Positions 53,955 through 63,876 of a DNA stretch of 64,000 nucleotides are shown here, one piece after another. The first letter of the stretch is position 1. Each line of letters starts with the position of its first letter. The notes beneath the pieces are model-generated. The model was not told the DNA's origin, did not search any database, and saw nothing but the letters and a program-made list of their open reading frames with translations. The translations under genes were made by a program, and so were the position numbers. Source of the DNA: Salinisphaera sp. Q1T1-3 (lineage in GTDB: Bacteria > Pseudomonadota > Gammaproteobacteria > Nevskiales > Salinisphaeraceae); assembly GCF_003602005.1 (NCBI RefSeq), contig NZ_QZWD01000003.1, positions 124,001 through 188,000 of the forward strand. The letters run 5' to 3'.

Positions 53955-55616
53955 TCAGGCCTGTCGCAGGTCCTTGCGCAATATCTTGCCCACGTTCGAT
54001 TTCGGCAGCTCGTCGATGAAGACGACGTGCTTGGGTACCTTGTAGCCGGTCAGCTCCTTGCGACAGAAGGCGATGAGCTCGTCCTCGTCCAGCGTGTCGT
54101 CGGCCTTGACCACGAAGACCTTGACCGCCTCGCCGGAGCGTTCGTCGTCGATGCCGATACAGGCGGCTTCCAGCACCTTGGGATGCGTGGCGATCACGTC
54201 CTCGATCTCGTTCGGATACACGTTGAAGCCGGAGACGAGAATCATGTCCTTCTTGCGATCGACGATGTAGAGAAAGCCGGCGTCGTCGAAGCGGGCGACG
54301 TCGCCGGTGCGCAGGAAACCATCGGGGAAGAAGGTCTTGTCGTTTTCTTCCGGCTTGTTCCAGTAGCCGGCCATGACCTGCGGGCCGGCCACGCAGAGTT
54401 CGCCCGGCTCGCCGAGCGGCACATCGTTGCCCTGCTCGTCGCGGATTGCGACCTCGGTGGAGGGCAGGGGCACGCCGATCGAGCCGCTATAGCTTTCCAG
54501 GTTCAGCGGGTTGATCGCCACGGCCGGCGAGGTCTCGGTCAAACCGTAGGCCTCGATGAGGGGATGCCCGGTGATTTTGTGCCATTTCTCGGCCACCGAG
54601 CGCTGCACGGCCGCGCCGCCGCCAAGCGCGAATTTCAGGCGCGAGAAATCCAGCTTCCGGAAGGCGTCGTTGTTGGTGAGCGCGTTGAACAGGGTGTTGA
54701 CGCCGGTGAATGCGGTCGGCTGCTGTTTCTCGAATTCCTTGACCAGCGCTGGAATATCGCGCGGGTTGGTGATCAGGACATTGCGCCCGCCCTGACGCAT
54801 GAAGACCAGACAGTTCGCCATCAGCGCGAACACATGATAGAGCGGCAGCGGCGTGAGGATGACCTCGTTGCCCTGGTCAATCCACGGATTCAGCCAGGCC
54901 TCGGCCTGGGCGACGTTGGCGACCATGTTGCGATGCCGCAGGATTGCGCCCTTGGCCAGCCCGGTCGTCCCGCCCGTGTACTGCAGGAACGCGATATCGT
55001 CCGGGGCCACGTCGACAGCCTTCATCGATTGCTTCGCGCCGTCGGCCAGCACGGTATTGAAACCGATGGCACCGGGCAGCTGGAACGATGGCACCATGCG
55101 CTTGACGTGCTTGACCACGAAGTTGGTGAGCAGCCGCTTCGGGGTGCCCAGCGCATCGCCGATCTGGGTCGTGATCACGGCTTCGAGTGCGACCTTGTCG
55201 ACCACCTTCTCCAGCGTGGCCGCGAAGTTTTCGACAATCACGATCGCCCGGGCGCCGGCGTCCGATAGCTGGTGCTCCAGCTCGCGCGCGGTATACAGCG
55301 GATTGACGTTCACCGCGACCATGCCGGCGCGCAGGATGCCGAGCAGCGCGATCGGGTACTGCAGCAGGTTGGGCATCATGAGCGCCACGCGATCGCCCTT
55401 GGCGAAGCCGAGCTCGTGCTGCAGGTAGGCCGCGAAATGCGCCGAGCGCGCATCGAGCTCCGCGTACGTCAGGCTCGCCCCCATGTTCTCGAACGCAGGC
55501 CGGTCGCCGAATTCACGAAAGCTGGCCTCGATCAGTTCGACGAGGGTACCGCTCTCGGCATCGGCGATCTCGGCGGGAACGCCGTCCGGATACTGCTTGA
55601 GCCAGAACTTTTCCAC
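53955..55616 (-). CDS. fadD: Long-chain fatty acid-CoA ligase (FadD type)
   Basis: The 553-residue adenylate-forming enzyme activates fatty acids with ATP and CoA. It has the P-loop-like [12 protein letters not shown], the [16 protein letters not shown] block, [25 protein letters not shown]-type hinge with the Gly-Asp pair, and GYKVPKHV with the final catalytic lysine in [11 protein letters not shown]. Length and motifs match E. coli FadD (561). It starts with GTG and has AAGGAG seven bases upstream. With FadE it connects outside fatty acids to beta-oxidation and to PHA precursors. Confidence 0.94.
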
Positions 55617-55935
55617 GCAATCTCCTTTGCTCGCAGGGCACCGCGAGGTCGCCCAGGGCGTGTCGAGTGGAGTATATCAGCCCGGTCCGGGGCGCTGGAC
55701 CGGCGCTTGATCTACGCCTTTAGGCGAGTCAGACCCGAAGGCGCGTCGTCACGAGAGAGGCCGTCGCACCCACGGCCAAGCGGCGGCAAGACAAGGCATC
55801 GTGAGCATGGCTCGGCCACGCGCGGCGGCCCGTGCCTTGCTCAAGCCGTCCGGCAGGGGCAATGCGGCTGCCTATCTCGTGACGACATGCCCTGGTCGTG
55901 CGTCACACCAGCGGCACTGGACCGCCGGTCGTTGG
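55617..55935. other. Promoter region of the acyl-CoA ligase and end of yihY
   Basis: No gene is supported. TATACT on the minus strand at 55671-55676 is a good -10. At the expected -35 lies a dyad, CCGGTCC at 55682-55688 and GGACCGG at 55697-55703, a candidate operator. The remainder up to yihY shows nothing distinctive. Confidence 0.5.
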
Positions 55936-57279
55936 TCAGCCGTCGTGTCGCGGGACCGCCTCGACCAGGTCGCGTAGCGTCGTCTCGCCGATGGCGTTAT
56001 CGCGTGCTGTGTCGGCGCGCGCCAGCAGGCTGTCGACAGCCTGCACGGGAACATCCGCACGAGGCACCAGACGTGCTTGCCGGTCGCCGCTGCGGACCAC
56101 GGCGAGCACATCGCGTACACGCAGCGTCGACAGATCGGCCCGTGGCACGACGCTCGTATCCGAGGCGTCGGCCGTCTCGACGAGCAGTCCGGCGGCGACG
56201 AGCCGCGCGATGGCGTTGTGAATATGGTCCGGTGCGGCACGCAGCAGATGGACGAGCAAGGCCACATCCGTCGGCCCGTCGCCACGGGCATAGCGGCTGG
56301 CCACGGTCGCTGCCGTGAGCAACGCCAGACGCTCGGCCTCGGCTGCTCCCAGACGCGGGGGATAGCTGCCGCGCGCCAGGCGTTCGGGGTATTGCAGCCA
56401 GAACGCCACGCGACACCCCATGAGCAGAATCATCCAGGAGACATAGAGCCAGATCAGCAGCAGGATCAGGATCGCGAAGCTGGAATAGATCGCGTTGACG
56501 TTGCCGGCATTCTTGGCGAACAGCGCGAACCCGACGCTGGCGGTCTGCCAGAGCACGCCGGAGAAGATGCCGCCGCCCAGCGCCGGCAGGAACCGGACGC
56601 GAGTGTTGGGAATGAACTTGAACAGCAGCGTGAATCCGATGCTGTAGAGCACGTAGGGCAACAGGCGGCCGATGCCGTAGAGCAGCATGCCGAACGGTTC
56701 GAGCTGCGACAGATAGGCCACGCTGCTGTTGCGGCCCAGACTGGCGGTGATGCTGGCAGCGGCGAGGATCACCAGTGGGCCGGCTACCAGCACACTGATG
56801 TAATCGGTCACGCGGCGGGCCAGCGGTCGCGGGGCCCGCACACGCCAGATGAAATTGCAGCCGGCCTCGACCTTCTGGATCAGCGATAGCACCGAGTAGA
56901 TCAGCGCCACCACGCCAACCACGCCAAGCACGCCGACCTGGACGTTGGAGACGAAGCCCACGATCTTGTCGACGATATCGCTGCTGCCCGAGCCCAGCGG
57001 TGCGAGAAAGCGTTCCAGCGTCGGACGCAGCGCGTTGTCGACGCCGAAGGCCTTGAGCAGCGAGAAGGCCAGGGCCAGCAGCGGCACGAGCGAGACGAGT
57101 GTCGTGTAGACGAGGCTCATCGCGCGCAGCGTGATTTCGCCGTCGCGGAACTCCGCGACCAGCGCCATCAGCATGCGCACCAGCCGGATCGGGGCCCGGC
57201 GATGGCGTGGCAGTGCCTCGAAGTTCGATGGCCAGATCCAGCGTTCGTAGGTTTGCCGGGCTGTGGCGAGCGCGCTCAT
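55936..57279 (-). CDS. YihY/BrkB family membrane protein with C-terminal winged-helix-like domain
   Basis: The 447-residue protein has six membrane helices (residues 45-295) in the YihY (formerly RNase BN) pattern: ITLRAMSLVYTTLVSLVPLLALAFSLL-type first segment, KVEAGCNFIWRV, RRVTDYISVLVAGPLV, and the GGIFSGVLWQTASVGFALF block. The last 130 residues (320-447) form a soluble part that looks like a winged helix. It is not a ribonuclease; its role is unknown, and some relatives are thought to act as transporters. It is divergent from phaC with 94 bp between them. Confidence 0.88.
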   Translation of the reverse strand: MSALATARQTYERWIWPSNFEALPRHRRAPIRLVRMLMALVAEFRDGEITLRAMSLVYTTLVSLVPLLALAFSLLKAFGVDNALRPTLERFLAPLGSGSSDIVDKIVGFVSNVQVGVLGVVGVVALIYSVLSLIQKVEAGCNFIWRVRAPRPLARRVTDYISVLVAGPLVILAAASITASLGRNSSVAYLSQLEPFGMLLYGIGRLLPYVLYSIGFTLLFKFIPNTRVRFLPALGGGIFSGVLWQTASVGFALFAKNAGNVNAIYSSFAILILLLIWLYVSWMILLMGCRVAFWLQYPERLARGSYPPRLGAAEAERLALLTAATVASRYARGDGPTDVALLVHLLRAAPDHIHNAIARLVAAGLLVETADASDTSVVPRADLSTLRVRDVLAVVRSGDRQARLVPRADVPVQAVDSLLARADTARDNAIGETTLRDLVEAVPRHDG

Positions 57280-57373
57280 GCACGTTCCACTTGAAAATAG
57301 TCAGCCGACATTGTAACCATCAAACAACCGCCCTGAACGGCATGGCCGTTCGCGACAACCGCCGAGAGGCTCC

Positions 57374-59071
57374 ATGGGAGAGCGCCGAACCGATTCGCTG
57401 CCGGCGCGCCGTGATCGCGGCTCGTTCGAGCCCGACGTCGCGGACCCGAGTCAGGACACCCAGCCGCCGTCGCTCGGCGGCTCCGCGGCCGAGTTGCTGT
57501 CGGCCTGCGCCCGCCAGCCGGCAGTGCTCGCACGGATCGAACTGGCCCTGGCCGGGCGGCTGGCTCTGATCGCGCTCGGCCGGACGCCGATGAGCGTCGA
57601 TACCGCCGATCGACGATTCGCGCATCCGGCCTGGCGGCGACGCGCGCCCTTCCGGCGGGCGCTGCAGGGCTATCTGGCGTGGTCGCATTCGTTACGCGAA
57701 CTGATCGAGGCACTGCGTGTCGACGCCCAGACGCGCGAACGTCTGCGCTTCGTGGTCGAGCACGTCGTCGCGGCCGGCGCCCCGAGCAACCTGTGCCTGA
57801 CCCATCCCGGGTTCTACGACAATCTGGTGGCTACCCGAGGGCGTTCGCTGCTCAATGGTCTGCGCCAGCTTGTCGACGACTGGCGACACAATGACGGTCT
57901 GCCACGCCAGGTCGATCCTGCCGCCTTCCGGGTCGGCCGCGATCTCGCGGCCACGCCGGGGGCGGTGATCTTTCGCAATGATCTGTTCGAGCTGATCCAG
58001 TACGCGCCGCGCCGGGCCGAAGTCGACGCGCGACCGCTGCTGTTCGTGCCGCCGCAGATCAACAAGTACTACGTGCTCGATCTGGCACCGGACAACAGCC
58101 TCGTGCGGCATGCGCTGGAGGCCGGTCAGCAGGTCTTCATGATCTCATGGCGCAATCCGACCGCCGCCCAGCGCGACTGGGGACTCGATGCCTATGTCGG
58201 CGCCGTCGGTGATGCCGTGGACATCGTCTGGGGCATCGGCGGCGAGCAGCCGGTCAAGCTGGTCGGTGCCTGTGCCGGCGGGCTGACCGCTGCCATCGCG
58301 CTGGCGCTGGCGCATCGGCGAGGGCGCGCCGCCCGTGTGGCCTGTCTGTCCTTGTTCGTCACGCTGCTCGGCGAGCTGACGGACAGCGCGTCCAGCCGCG
58401 GCACGTTCGGCAACCGGGCGATCCGGCATGCACTGGCGCACTCATCGCGCACCGGCGTGCTGGACGGCGCCGACCTGGCGCGTGCCTTTGCCTGGCTGCG
58501 ACCCGATGATCTGATCTGGCGGTTCGTCACCAACAACTACGTGCTCGGCCAGCGCCCGCCGGCCCACGATATCCTGTTCTGGAACGCCGACACCACGCGT
58601 CTGCCGGCGCGCCTGCACGCCGATCTGCTGTCGATCTACACGGCGGATTCGCTGCGGACGCCCCGGGGCGTGCATATCGACGAGACTGCCATCGATCTGA
58701 GCGAGATCGATCAGGACGTCTTCATCGTGGCCGGTGCGCGCGACCACATCACGCCCTGGACGGCCTGTTTCCGCACGACACGATTGCTGGATACGAACAT
58801 GCGTTTCGTGCTTGCCGACGCCGGCCATGTGCAGACCGTGGTGTCGCCGCCCCGATCGGGCGGCGGGTATCTGAGCGATACCTGTGCCCGGGATGAAGCG
58901 GCGGCGGACTGGCAGGAACGCGCACCGCGTCGGGACGGCTCCTGGTGGCCGGAATGGTTCGACTGGTGTCGGGCACGTGGCGGGCCGACGGTCGCGGCCT
59001 CGATGCGATACGGCAACGATGCCCACGAACCGATCGAAGCGGCGCCGGGACGCTATGTGCGCCAGCGCTGA
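57374..59071 (+). CDS. phaC: Class II polyhydroxyalkanoate synthase PhaC
   Basis: The 565-residue protein aligns with Pseudomonas PhaC1/PhaC2 along most of its length: HNDGLPRQV, FRNDLFELIQY, VPPQINKYYVLDL, MISWRNP, WLRPDDLIW and a DGSWWPEWFDW end. The catalytic Cys300 lies in GACAGG, with Asp457 in RDHITPW and His485 in AGHVQT, so the synthase should be active. Class II enzymes polymerise medium-chain 3-hydroxyacyl-CoA. GAGG lies before the ATG; TTGAAA and TAACCA at 17-bp spacing in the divergent gap may be a weak promoter. The two following genes overlap it and each other. Confidence 0.95.
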   Translation: MGERRTDSLPARRDRGSFEPDVADPSQDTQPPSLGGSAAELLSACARQPAVLARIELALAGRLALIALGRTPMSVDTADRRFAHPAWRRRAPFRRALQGYLAWSHSLRELIEALRVDAQTRERLRFVVEHVVAAGAPSNLCLTHPGFYDNLVATRGRSLLNGLRQLVDDWRHNDGLPRQVDPAAFRVGRDLAATPGAVIFRNDLFELIQYAPRRAEVDARPLLFVPPQINKYYVLDLAPDNSLVRHALEAGQQVFMISWRNPTAAQRDWGLDAYVGAVGDAVDIVWGIGGEQPVKLVGACAGGLTAAIALALAHRRGRAARVACLSLFVTLLGELTDSASSRGTFGNRAIRHALAHSSRTGVLDGADLARAFAWLRPDDLIWRFVTNNYVLGQRPPAHDILFWNADTTRLPARLHADLLSIYTADSLRTPRGVHIDETAIDLSEIDQDVFIVAGARDHITPWTACFRTTRLLDTNMRFVLADAGHVQTVVSPPRSGGGYLSDTCARDEAAADWQERAPRRDGSWWPEWFDWCRARGGPTVAASMRYGNDAHEPIEAAPGRYVRQR

Positions 59072-59879
59072 CATACCGGAAATCGTCTCGTGTCGTGTCG
59101 GCGGCCAGATCCTGCGTGCCCGGCATCGGCCCGGCACCGGACGGCCGGTGCTGATCTGCAGCGATTTTGCCGTGAATATCGAGGTGCTGGATGATTTCTG
59201 CGCGGCGATGTCGCGCCCCACGATCGTGTTCGACTGGCCCGGTGTCGGTGCTCCGGGGGTGTCGCGTTTTCAGCGGATGCCGGCCCTGGCAGCGCTGCTC
59301 GTCGGGCTGCTCGATGCGCTGGGCGTGGCGGCAGTCGATGTGCTCGGCATGGGCTGGGGCGGGCTGCTCGCCCAGCAGTTCGCGCGCGATCACGCACACC
59401 GCCTGGGGCGGCTCGTGCTGGTGGCGACCTCGACCGGCGCCATCATGCTGCCCGGTCGGCTGGCGAATCTGCGTCGACTCGCTCGCACGTCTGGCCTTCG
59501 GGATATCGCCCGCGATGGCTCGGCGGCGCGGGCGCTGTTCGGCGGCCGGCGCGACACCGAGTGCCGCGCCGTGGCTGGTGCCTTGCACCGGGCCCGTGCG
59601 CCGGCCCTGTCGGCAGTCGCCGCACAGGTCTACGCGCTCGCCGGATTCTCGAGCCTGACCTGGGCACACCGGATCAGCGCGCCCACGTTGATCCTGGCCG
59701 GCGACGACGACCGGCTGATGCCGCTGGCCAACGCGCGCGTGCTGCAGATGTTGATTCCCCATGCCGAGCTGTCGGTGCTGTGCGCGGCCGGCCACTGGCT
59801 CCTGATCGAACGCCAGTTCGAGGCGATACGCCGAATCGAGGCGTTTCTGGCCGGCGATGATGCGAGAACACGACGATGA
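59055..59879 (+). CDS. PhaZ-like alpha/beta hydrolase lacking the nucleophilic serine (Gly100)
   Basis: The 274-residue protein resembles the intracellular PHA depolymerase PhaZ of Pseudomonas (283 residues): a CSDFAVNIEVLDDF block at the site of the usual GANLE motif, DWPGVGAPG, a nucleophile elbow, LILAGDDDRLMP and a C-terminal GHWLL. The elbow reads G-M-G-W-G (98-102) in place of G-x-S-x-G, so the serine is glycine; the codon at 59352 is GGC. Asp217 and nearby, and His247, remain. A classic serine hydrolase mechanism is not possible. The start ATG at 59055 overlaps phaC by 17 bp. It may be a granule-bound or regulatory pseudoenzyme. Confidence 0.85.
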   Translation: MCASADIPEIVSCRVGGQILRARHRPGTGRPVLICSDFAVNIEVLDDFCAAMSRPTIVFDWPGVGAPGVSRFQRMPALAALLVGLLDALGVAAVDVLGMGWGGLLAQQFARDHAHRLGRLVLVATSTGAIMLPGRLANLRRLARTSGLRDIARDGSAARALFGGRRDTECRAVAGALHRARAPALSAVAAQVYALAGFSSLTWAHRISAPTLILAGDDDRLMPLANARVLQMLIPHAELSVLCAAGHWLLIERQFEAIRRIEAFLAGDDARTRR

Positions 59880-60865
59880 GTGAAACGACGCCTCCGCGAC
59901 GAAAACTGCCGCCGGAGTTGAGTGTGTTGCGGCGGCGTACGCGCATGCAGATCGAGTGGCTGGACATCGACGGCGTGCAGCTGCGCTGCGGCATCCGGCG
60001 CGGGCGGGGCCGGCCGATCGTGTTGCTCAACACGCTGGGCGCCAATCTCGACATGATGCTGCCGCTGGTCAACGCGCTGGATGACAGCGAACTGATCGTG
60101 CCGGAACTGCCGGGCGCCGGGCAGACGCCGAGCCTGAGGCTGCCCCGGACGATGGGCTGGCACGCGCGACTCCTGGCCACATTGCTGGATCGGCTCGGTT
60201 ACGACGGCCCGCTCAATTTCGTCGGTCTGGCCTGGGGCGGCGCGCTGGTCCAGACCTTTGCGCTGGCCTATCCGGCGCGCACCAACCGTATCGTGCTGGC
60301 TTCCAGTTCCGTGGGCGTGCTGGGGCGCACGTTCGGTACCAACGGCTGGCGTCGGCTGCAGGCGGTTCGACGATATCGGAAAGCCGAAGCACCCAGTCCC
60401 GGCCTTGCCGGACTGTATGGCGGACTGATCCGGCAACGCCCGGAATTGCTACGGCCGCGCGGCGAGCACGCCAGCGGGCCCAGTACGCGTGGCTATCTTC
60501 ATCAGGCCCTGGCCGGGGCGGCCTGGACCAGCGTCCACCGGCTGCACAATCTCGGCTGTCCAACGCTGATCATGGGCGGTGACGACGACCCGATTTCGCC
60601 ACTGGTCAACAGCCGGTTTCTCTACTGGCTGATTCCCAAGTCGCATCTGCACGTGGTGCGTGGCGGCGGGCACCTGTTCTTGTTGCTGCGTGCCAATGAA
60701 AGCGCGGCCGTGATCCTGCGTTTCATCAACGAGCGTCGCTACGACGGCACCGACAACGCCGATTACCATCTGGCTCGCGGGTTGCCCCGCGACGGGCAAC
60801 TCGTTCCCCCGGCGCCCGGCGATGGCGACGCGCCATTGGCGTGGCCGGAAGCGCCCGAGCCCTGA
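59876..60865 (+). CDS. Second PhaZ-like alpha/beta hydrolase lacking the nucleophilic serine (Ala119)
   Basis: The 329-residue protein is even closer to PhaZ: NTLGANLDMMLPLVNALD, ELPGAGQTP, AWGGALVQTFALAYPAR, AWTSVHRLHNLGCPTLIM-type region and GGGHLFLL. The elbow reads G-L-A-W-G (117-121), so Ala119 stands where the serine should be; the codon at 60230 is GCC. Asp236-238 and His266 are in place. It overlaps the previous gene by 4 bp (ATGA). A Pro/Asp-rich tail of about 45 residues follows the hydrolase domain. Two inactivated copies in a row speak for a kept, non-hydrolytic function. Confidence 0.87.
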   Translation: MSETTPPRRKLPPELSVLRRRTRMQIEWLDIDGVQLRCGIRRGRGRPIVLLNTLGANLDMMLPLVNALDDSELIVPELPGAGQTPSLRLPRTMGWHARLLATLLDRLGYDGPLNFVGLAWGGALVQTFALAYPARTNRIVLASSSVGVLGRTFGTNGWRRLQAVRRYRKAEAPSPGLAGLYGGLIRQRPELLRPRGEHASGPSTRGYLHQALAGAAWTSVHRLHNLGCPTLIMGGDDDPISPLVNSRFLYWLIPKSHLHVVRGGGHLFLLLRANESAAVILRFINERRYDGTDNADYHLARGLPRDGQLVPPAPGDGDAPLAWPEAPEP

Positions 60866-60980
60866 GTCGGGCACCCGCCATCGTCGCGCAGCCCACGCGT
60901 TTTCGCATGCCAGCTGGTGCGGCGGGCGGCGGATCGTCATGACAATGCGTGCGACGTCGCCGCAGGCGACGGATGCCGGC

Positions 60981-61808
60981 TCAGGCGTCGTCGGCCGTAT
61001 GCGCCGATGCGGTACGGCGGGCGTTGCGTGCGGCGGCCATCGCCTGACGATGGGCCACGGCGGTACGGGCGGCCTCGGCCAGACTGCGACGATCGTAGCC
61101 GCGCGGGTTGATCGGCGCGCAGACCCGCAGTTGAGCGGTAATGCCGTGCAGCTTGAACAGATCCCGGAAATGCGGCCCCAGCGGCGCCTCGTTCACCCAG
61201 GGGGCCAGTGCATGATGCATGCCGGGCGGCGTGGTGTCGTCGGCATAGCGCAGGCCCACGGGCAGCACCGGGTAGCCGCCGTCGATCGCCGCCGCGAACA
61301 GACGTGCGTGGAAGCGATGTGGCGTCGGGTCGTAGGTGGTCGTGCCCTCGGGAAAGAACAGCACCGAGCGATCATGATCGAGCACTTCGCGGATCGCAGC
61401 ACTCGTCTCGCCGGTCTTGCCGGCCCCGCGCGACAGGAACAACGTGCCGCCGGCGCGGGCGAACGAGCCGACCAGTGGCCACTTGCCCACTTCGGCCTTG
61501 GATACGAAGGCCGTGTTGAAGGCTCGACCGAGCACCAGGATATCCAGCCAGGAACAATGATTGGCCACGACCAGCATCGGCCCGGCCGGCGCTTCGCCGT
61601 CCAGTTCAACGGTCACGCCGAGCGCGGCCAGCATGCGGCCGAGCCACCAGTTGATCAGGTATTTGCTGTAGCGGCCGAGCAGCGGCACCGTCGGTAGCAG
61701 GATCGTGCCCAACAACAGGACGCTCGCAAAATGCACGGCCTTGATCGTGAGACGAAAACGGCCCAGAAGCGGTCGGTCGGTCGAAAACGAGGGAGTCGTT
61801 GCTGACAT
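60981..61808 (-). CDS. 1-acyl-sn-glycerol-3-phosphate acyltransferase (PlsC family)
   Basis: The 275-residue protein has a membrane helix near residues 22-45, the catalytic NHCSWLD (H-x4-D), the GKWPLVGSF block, FPEGTT and the LPVGLRY segment. These are motifs I to IV of lysophosphatidate acyltransferases, so it should add the second acyl chain in phospholipid synthesis. Some relatives act on ornithine lipids (OlsA) or other lyso-lipids. A basic, Ala-rich tail ends the protein. It converges with the PHA operon and lies 68 bp downstream of rnt. Confidence 0.9.
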   Translation of the reverse strand: MSATTPSFSTDRPLLGRFRLTIKAVHFASVLLLGTILLPTVPLLGRYSKYLINWWLGRMLAALGVTVELDGEAPAGPMLVVANHCSWLDILVLGRAFNTAFVSKAEVGKWPLVGSFARAGGTLFLSRGAGKTGETSAAIREVLDHDRSVLFFPEGTTTYDPTPHRFHARLFAAAIDGGYPVLPVGLRYADDTTPPGMHHALAPWVNEAPLGPHFRDLFKLHGITAQLRVCAPINPRGYDRRSLAEAARTAVAHRQAMAAARNARRTASAHTADDA

Positions 61809-61876
61809 AGCGATGAAACGAGGACTTGGCGAACGGGGCGTGAGACGAGGCGACGTGTATGCGTCTTTGCCGGGCG

Positions 61877-62533
61877 CTAGGTCTGCGGTGCGGGCGGCAC
61901 CGCGTCGTAGATCGGCTGGAAACGGTTGACGATGTCACAGAACAGACGCGCGGTCTGTTCCGTATCGTAGCGGGCCGAATGCGCGGCTGCATTGTCCCAG
62001 GGCATGCCGGCGGCCGCGGCGGCGCGGCGCAGCACGGTCTGGCCATAGGCCACGCCGGCCAGCGTGGCCGTGTCGAAGCAGGAAAACGGATGAAACGGGC
62101 TGCGCTTGATGCCGGTGCGCGCGATCGCGGCATTGAGAAAGCCGAGATCGAAGTGCGCGTTGTGACCGACCAGCACGGCGCGCTTGCACTCGGCGGCCTT
62201 CATCGCCTCCCGGACCACGCGAAAGATACGGCCCAGCGCATCGCGTTCCGGGATTGCCGGGCGCAGCGGGTGGTGCGGATCGATCCCGTTGACCTCCAGC
62301 GAGGCCGGTTCGATGTTGGCGCCCTCGAACGGCGCCACGTGATAGGAGGTCGACTCCCGCAGACCCAGTTGGCCGTCGTCATCGAAACCCACCGTGACCG
62401 CCGCAATCTCGAGCAACGCGTCCGTCGCGGCGTTGAAGCCGCCGGTTTCGACATCGACGACTACCGGGAGAAAGCCGCGAAAGCGGGTGGCCATCCGCGG
62501 AGTCGCGGGACCATCGGATTCAATATCGCTCAT
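61877..62533 (-). CDS. rnt: Ribonuclease T
   Basis: The 218-residue DEDD exonuclease has Asp27 and Glu29 in [24 protein letters not shown], and [15 protein letters not shown] with the final His and Asp. The [12 protein letters not shown] block and [10 protein letters not shown] segment are specific to RNase T, which matures tRNA and other RNA 3' ends. Length equals that of E. coli RNase T (215). It is divergent from argG with 131 bp between. Confidence 0.95.
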
Positions 62534-62589
62534 GTGCCGATGGTAGCACCGAGTGAACGAATCCGGGCGCGTCCGCGGTCGCGCTTTTG

Positions 62590-62595
62590 TATACT
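62590..62595 (+). promoter_or_regulatory. Candidate -10 element of the argG promoter
   Basis: TATACT lies 70 bp before the argG ATG. The -35 region has no good match. No ARG-box-like dyad was recognised. Confidence 0.45.
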
Positions 62596-62664
62596 CGTGG
62601 CCAGCTTAGACCGCCGGTTGTCACAGCATCGACCGGCCCCAGACATTTTTCGGCGGAGCGCAGC

Positions 62665-63876
62665 ATGAGCGGCGACGTTTCCAAAGTGGTCCTGGCCTAT
62701 TCGGGCGGGCTCGATACCTCGGTGATCCTGAAGTGGCTGCAGGACACCTATGATTGCGAAGTGGTGACCTTCACGGCCGATATCGGCCAGGGCGAGGAAC
62801 TGTCCGAAGTACGCCCGAAGGCCGAGCAGCTGGGCGTCAAGGAAGTCTTCATAGACGATCTGCGCGAGGAATTCGTGCGTGATTTCGTCTATCCGATGTT
62901 CCGGGCCAACGCCATCTACGAAGGCGAATACCTGCTCGGCACATCGATCGCCCGCCCGCTGATTTCCAAGCGTCTGGTGGAAATCGCGCGCGAGACCGGC
63001 GCCGATGCCATCGCCCACGGGGCGACCGGCAAGGGCAACGACCAGGTCCGCTTCGAGCTGTCGGCCTACGCGCTGGCCCCGGATATCAAGGTCATCGCCC
63101 CCTGGCGCGAATGGGATCTGAACTCGCGCGAGCGCCTGTTGGCCTACGCCGAGGAAAACGGCATCGACATCCGCAAGAAGGCCGACGGCGGGTCGCCTTA
63201 CTCCACCGACGCCAACGCCCTGCATATCTCCTACGAAGGGGGCGTGCTCGAGGATCCCTGGACGCCGGCCGAGGATGTCATGTGGGAATGGAGCGTGGCG
63301 CCCGAAGCGGCGCCCGATACGCCGCAGGAGGTCGATCTGACTTTCGAGCAGGGCGATATCGTGGCCGTGGACGGTCAGCGCATGACGCCGTATGAAGTGC
63401 TGGCCCGGCTCAATACGCTGGGCGGTGCCCACGGCATCGGGCGTATCGACATCGTCGAGAACCGTTATGTCGGCATGAAGTCGCGCGGTTGCTACGAGAC
63501 GCCGGGCGGCACAATCATGCTGCGTGCGCATCGTGCCATCGAATCCATCACGCTCGACCGTGAGGCCGCGCATCTCAAGGACGAGCTGATGCCGCGTTAC
63601 GCCAAGCTCATCTACAACGGTTACTGGTTCTCGCCGGAACGACGCATGATGCAGGCGGCGATCGATGAATCGCAGGGCCACGTCAACGGCACGGTCCGCG
63701 TCAAGCTCTACAAGGGCTCGGTCAGTGTGGTCGGCCGGTCCTCGGACCAGGACAGCCTGTTCGATGCCGCGATCGCGACATTCGAAGACGACCGCGGGGC
63801 CTACGATCAGGCCGATGCGGCCGGCTTCATCCGGCTCAACGCACTGCGTCTGCGGCTCGGGCATCGTCAGGGCTGA
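62665..63876 (+). CDS. argG: Argininosuccinate synthase ArgG
   Basis: The 403-residue enzyme joins citrulline and aspartate with ATP in arginine synthesis. It has the N-type ATP pyrophosphatase loop AYSGGLDTS (11-19), [22 protein letters not shown], the [14 protein letters not shown] block and [12 protein letters not shown]. The length fits the 400-residue branch found in most bacteria. The ATG at 62665 is supported by GGAG upstream; an extension to 62587 would run through the -10 region. argH is not adjacent. Confidence 0.97.

Follow-up and report, generated by a model that had tools for sequence, protein, structure and literature searches.

The polyhydroxyalkanoate (PHA) locus of Salinisphaera sp. 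Q1T1-3 carries two genes for PhaZ-like proteins, here termed A and B, directly behind a class II-like PHA synthase gene (phaC), and the first of the two appears to encode a fixed pseudoenzyme of the medium-chain-length (mcl) PHA depolymerase (PhaZ) family. The locus lies on the forward strand (as do all coordinates below) of a 64,000-nucleotide stretch (the window; NZ_QZWD01000003.1, positions 124,001 to 188,000) of a 3.87 Mb genome (G000). Gene A (59055..59879, 274 aa) encodes a glycine in place of the nucleophilic serine in every genome in which the gene was found, and we propose, on an even chance in our estimation, that its product serves PhaC or the PHA granule as a non-hydrolytic partner with the PhaZ fold. 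Gene B (59876..60865, 329 aa) is likewise serine-less in the window and in some other species of the genus.

The elbow glycine of gene A

A first-pass annotation of the window had claimed that both PhaZ-like proteins lost the elbow serine while keeping the Asp and His of the triad, and each residue was located where it had been placed. Both frames are open at the above coordinates. The elbow codons read GGC for Gly100 in A (59352..59354; GMGWGG) and GCC for Ala119 in B (60230..60232; GLAWGG), so that the Ser-Asp-His triad of PhaZ is reduced to Asp219 (59709..59711) and His247 (59793..59795) in A and to Asp238 (60587..60589) and His266 (60671..60673) in B. By this reading, A would be without a serine-hydrolase nucleophile.

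The comparison covered 14 Salinisphaera genomes (G000-G013, the window's own included), with S. hydrothermalis, S. japonica, S. shabanensis, S. orenii, S. halophila and metagenome-assembled genomes among the relatives, and G015 from another genus of the Salinisphaeraceae. The order phaC-A-B is found in 13 of the 14 Salinisphaera genomes as well as in G015, and the frames of A and B are both open at all 14 loci. The remaining genome, G006 (85% complete), lacks both A and B as well as any phaC above the cut-off; hence, no phaC without A was seen among the genus genomes. G014 and G016, from a third genus of the family, gave no match to A. The elbow residue is Gly in all 14 genomes having A, and the triad Asp and His are invariant. 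Since Gly recurs in 14/14 A proteins and a non-Ser elbow in the B proteins of 5/13 Salinisphaera, neither chance nor sequencing error accounts for the substitutions. The glycine of A represents one old, fixed loss that predates the split of these 14 genomes. A search for close relatives with both elbow serines intact, beside which the window would look like random decay, found none.

Outside the family, the serine is retained. A scan of genome contigs with the A alignment identified 66 loci encoding a relative: the elbow is Gly in all 11 from Salinisphaeraceae and Ser in all 47 others in which it was readable, 44 of which have a PhaC-like frame (≥70 bits) in the locus, and it was unreadable in the other eight. 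The scan used two patterns, one favoring Gly and one neutral, and relatives matching neither would be missed. The PhaZ adjoining phaC was also read in one genome from each of six further genera of the order, spanning two families, and all six carry Ser. A class-wide pattern census found Gly/Ala elbows in 3/369 genomes, all Salinisphaera, although its power is low because the control for Ser/Thr-type codons found only 5/369 (one Salinisphaera, two with a different GFTWGA motif). As for the origin of A, the free tree placed it nearer the PhaZ of G018, G037 and G044 from the same order (weak support, 64/89), while joining A and B as one group was not rejected (approximately unbiased (AU) test, p = 0.21); duplication of B is neither shown nor excluded by these results.

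The candidate start of A, an ATG, lies 17 nt inside phaC in 13/13 Salinisphaera (59055..59071 in the window), whereas the overlap in G015 is 4 nt. The A frame contains further start codons, none of them common to all 13. Within the protein, 8 of the 10 positions in the elbow stretch 98-107 are invariant, compared with 54/274 overall, which argues that the pocket region is still under selection. In 13/14 A proteins, the residue after the triad His is Trp.

By family match and predicted models, A and B adopt an ordinary α/β-hydrolase fold. The AlphaFold model of A (mean predicted local distance difference test score, pLDDT, 88.7) places Gly100 between a strand (94-99) and a helix (101-112), while the predicted model of B (pLDDT 76.6) is poor at residues 149-171. 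Among solved structures, esterases come closest; the PhaZ of Bacillus thuringiensis and its S102A mutant also match, lower down. The mutant (PDB 8ynw) shows the same kind of Ser loss on a related fold, aligning with A at Z 27.4 and a root-mean-square deviation of 2.9 over 253 residues, but it is engineered and only 19% identical.

In Pseudomonas, phaZ lies beside phaC, the position that A and B occupy here. A resembles the Pseudomonas mcl-PHA PhaZ (TIGR02240) in predicted fold, elbow context (GxxWGG) and the Asp and His residues. It differs in lacking the nucleophilic Ser (14/14; B lacks it in 5/13 Salinisphaera), in a changed FNGIG loop and in a score below the family cut-off. TIGR02240 is the top model for both window proteins, with A at 147.2 and B at 180.9 bits against a curated cut-off of 250.6; the cut-off is passed by the B proteins of six other Salinisphaera (6/14 genus genomes), whereas A stays under it throughout the genus. 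PMC12504323 gives the triad of P. putida PhaZ as Ser102, Asp221 and His248, and reports that deletion of the FNGIG loop or a change of Asn35 abolishes activity. At the first Gly of this loop, A has Asp in 11/14 proteins (Asp37 in the window, 59163..59165), Glu in two and Asn in one, giving an acidic residue in 13 of the 14.

Serine loss in gene B and purifying selection

Unlike that of A, the elbow of B varies within the genus. Ser is present in 8/13 Salinisphaera (G002, G003, G004, G005, G007, G008, G011 and G012) and in G015; the five Ser-less proteins have Ala (G000 and G001) or Gly (G009, G010 and G013), and all five retain Asp and His. In a tree of five neighboring genes, to which G009 contributes two of the five and G015 38% of the columns, G000 groups with G009, G010 and G013 (support 100/100), and G001 falls outside the group formed by this window clade and the Ser-bearing G005 and G007 (100/99). 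The B tree has the same branching order. The PhaC tree places G001 elsewhere, beside the six other Ser-bearing genomes (88/93), likewise apart from the window clade. A single clade of the five Ser-less genomes was rejected (AU p = 0.001). Because these genomes do not form one clade, B underwent two or more losses of Ser, or else a single loss followed by a regain in G005 and G007, a scenario with an equally short count that we consider less likely. Most likely, B is a former depolymerase whose nucleophile was lost in the window clade and in G001.

In B, the first-Gly position of FNGIG is Thr in 5/5 Ser-less proteins and Gly in 7/9 Ser-bearing ones. The B proteins of G005 and G007 (L034 and L041) keep Ser, have altered loops (LNTIG and LNAMG) and score below the TIGR02240 cut-off, such that their activity is doubtful too. 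The ATGA overlap of A and B (59876..59879), which gives B an ATG within the last 4 nt of A, occurs at only four of the 14 loci (G000, G009, G010 and G013). Its presence suggests coupled expression of A and B in this clade. In G001, with a Ser-less B, the first B ATG lies 54 nt after A, and in G005, with a Ser-bearing B, a possible GTG start lies 14 nt inside A. As the overlap is one event in one clade, it is weak evidence for a tie to serine loss.

Pairwise ratios of nonsynonymous to synonymous substitution rates (dN/dS) were computed on gap-free columns (264 codons for A, 306 for B and 546 for PhaC). Over the same eight pairs, the values span 0.09-0.32 for A, 0.06-0.27 for B and 0.06-0.35 for PhaC. 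The pair G009/G010 was included, and G011/G012 and G002/G008 were left out; G011 and G012 are near-identical, and their B value of 0.39 comes from very few changes. For the Ser-less B pair G010/G013, dN/dS is 0.08 (bootstrap 0.05-0.13). Both genes are thus kept under purifying selection, as the first-pass annotation had supposed. Its proposal of separate serine losses is also supported, since A lost its serine before the 14 genomes diverged and B did so later. The layout it had described, a synthase followed by two pseudo-depolymerases, applies to five of the 13 Salinisphaera (G000, G009, G010, G013 and G001), while the other species have a Ser-bearing B. The usual layout is synthase, pseudo-depolymerase and Ser-bearing PhaZ, with the double-pseudoenzyme layout a derived state. 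The earlier reading is better founded for A and narrower for B.

The surrounding locus and other PHA proteins

The phaC gene (57374..59071, 565 aa) encodes a GACAGG motif with Cys300, followed by Asp457 and His485, which we assign by motif as the catalytic residues. Among the three synthase classes matched, PhaC scores best with class II (TIGR01839) at 572.2 bits, below the curated cut-off of 855.4. The earlier description of an intact class II PhaC therefore holds for the catalytic residues and less well for the class assignment. Since the model match begins only at residue 38, translation may in fact start further downstream.

The three genes sit in the block fadD-yihY-phaC-A-B-plsC-rnt-argG (53955-63876), neighbor names being our reading of the translations, and the same order is seen in 12 Salinisphaera. 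The contig of G009 ends after B, and the stretch from G015 showed only fadD and yihY of these neighbors. The conserved order across Salinisphaera indicates that phaC-A-B was inherited in place. Monomers may come from the acyl-CoA synthetase encoded by fadD, which lies two genes away from phaC. A contig titled Endozoicomonas sp. G2_2 (NZ_JAGHQU010000004.1, L089) bears the Salinisphaera phaC-A-B block, and its title looks mislabeled. Second PhaZ-like genes away from the main locus were observed in G015 (L158 2468-3292; GHSWGG) and, beside a second PhaC, in G018 (L159; GVSWGG), both with Ser.

A further depolymerase is not clearly seen in the window genome. The C-terminal domain of polyhydroxybutyrate depolymerases (PF06850) gave no match over its cut-off of 27 in the 14 genus genomes, the only match being one of 24.7 bits in the window genome (G000:C22:187542-187829). 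PF10503 matches in 7/14, above the cut-off in three (G001, G005 and G007), and does not match in G000. NF050089 has below-cut-off matches in 14/14 genus genomes and also in 13/14 control genomes, and so carries little information. No match to TIGR02240 above 60 bits besides A and B was found in the genus; the model also matches general hydrolases (11/14 control genomes). Among phasins, PF05597 is absent from all 14 genus genomes. Phasin_2 (PF09361) matches in all 14 and is above the cut-off in 13 (under it in G006), the best matches lying in frames of 239-437 aa. The Phasin_2 match of the window genome lies away from phaC (G000:C58:137108-137371), and G003 has a second, weak one.

A putative partner of PhaC

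As we picture it, A would be expressed with PhaC via the gene overlap and would bind, but no longer cut, the polymer chain or else bind at the surface of the granule. Its action would be on the synthesis side as a PhaC accessory, its binding to the chain end or granule affecting chain length or initiation. B would once have been a true depolymerase; presumably non-hydrolytic in the window clade and G001, it may have joined A's role there. The fold kept, the serine loss fixed over the long term and the purifying selection are, at the level of sequence, the marks of a pseudoenzyme. NDRG proteins and neuroligins are eukaryotic α/β pseudo-hydrolases that kept the fold, lost the nucleophile and were recruited for another task. 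They resemble A in these features but are neither bacterial nor known to be linked to PHA. PhaE and PhaR, the accessory subunits of class III and class IV PHA synthases, are produced together with a PhaC that depends on them. They are not known to be α/β hydrolases, and their likeness to A lies in the proposed role only, the PhaC here being class II-like.

Alternatively, A could be a regulatory pseudoenzyme that pairs or competes with an active PhaZ, namely B, and dampens breakdown, with another enzyme degrading PHA, or breakdown lost, where B is Ser-less. An enzyme and a pseudoenzyme side by side are a common arrangement, A adjoins a Ser-bearing B in 8/13 Salinisphaera and G015, and a protein passes the TIGR02240 cut-off in 6/14 genomes. 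Against this, A is retained in the five species with a Ser-less B, where the pairs compared also show constraint on A, and regulation of an active B thus cannot be its sole purpose; moreover, its constant-length overlap is with phaC, not B. Even with another depolymerase possibly under the control of A in the Ser-less-B species, we regard regulation as possible but unlikely. Slightly more doubtful is that A and the Ser-less B proteins are enzymes of another kind, using a His-Asp pair, a roomier Gly/Ala elbow and the acidic loop residue of A for chemistry without a Ser nucleophile. Retention of Asp and His in 14/14 A and 5/5 Ser-less B proteins and the acidic loop residue in 13/14 A proteins would suit such chemistry; yet the Asn of one A and the Thr of all five Ser-less B proteins leave no common new nucleophile, and the Asp and His motifs may be kept for structure.

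Two further explanations fare worse. That A is a phasin-like granule coat, without contact with PhaC or the chain end, draws on the absence of PF05597, but Phasin_2 matches throughout the genus and few parts of A are as conserved as its elbow, making a mere coat very improbable. Decay, with A and B as remnants being lost, would explain the missing nucleophile and the scores below the family cut-off. It is highly improbable and was rejected, as it is contradicted by the open frames of both genes at 14/14 loci and by dN/dS well below 1, even in the Ser-less B pair, and the constant distance of the A start also speaks against it.

Several points weigh against A as a partner of PhaC or the granule. 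All 14 genomes belong to a single family, which makes the fixed Gly a single event, and A may have stayed with phaC simply because the two were inherited in place. From the gene overlap, no more than coupled translation can be suggested, and no complex; the structure models are of single chains. That Asp and His are invariant would equally fit some remaining catalytic function. The dN/dS of A exceeds that of B in 8/8 pairs, and all of these ratios are rough, with dS at 0.65-1.33 in seven of the eight pairs and genomes shared between pairs. A bolder form of the partner proposal is that Salinisphaeraceae possess a PHA synthase complex of a new kind: an obligate, catalytically dead PhaZ-fold subunit would hold the nascent chain for a class II-like PhaC, and in one clade both PhaZ-like proteins would be such subunits; we put this forward tentatively and think it unlikely as a whole.

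Our literature search, which left out most subscription journals, returned no account of such a Ser-less PhaZ-like protein among the matches listed; in the accessible part of one matching paper (PMC9152352), Salinisphaera appears only in a reference title. A role of PhaZ beyond degradation has been suspected in PHA synthesis or chain length, given that deletion of phaZ in P. putida U yields shorter polymer, and the authors allow for a part of PhaZ in chain length or synthesis (PMC3918157). A naturally Ser-less PhaZ tied to phaC, found in several named, cultured species, makes a non-hydrolytic PhaZ role directly testable, and for the making of bioplastics this family might provide a means of adjusting polymer length.

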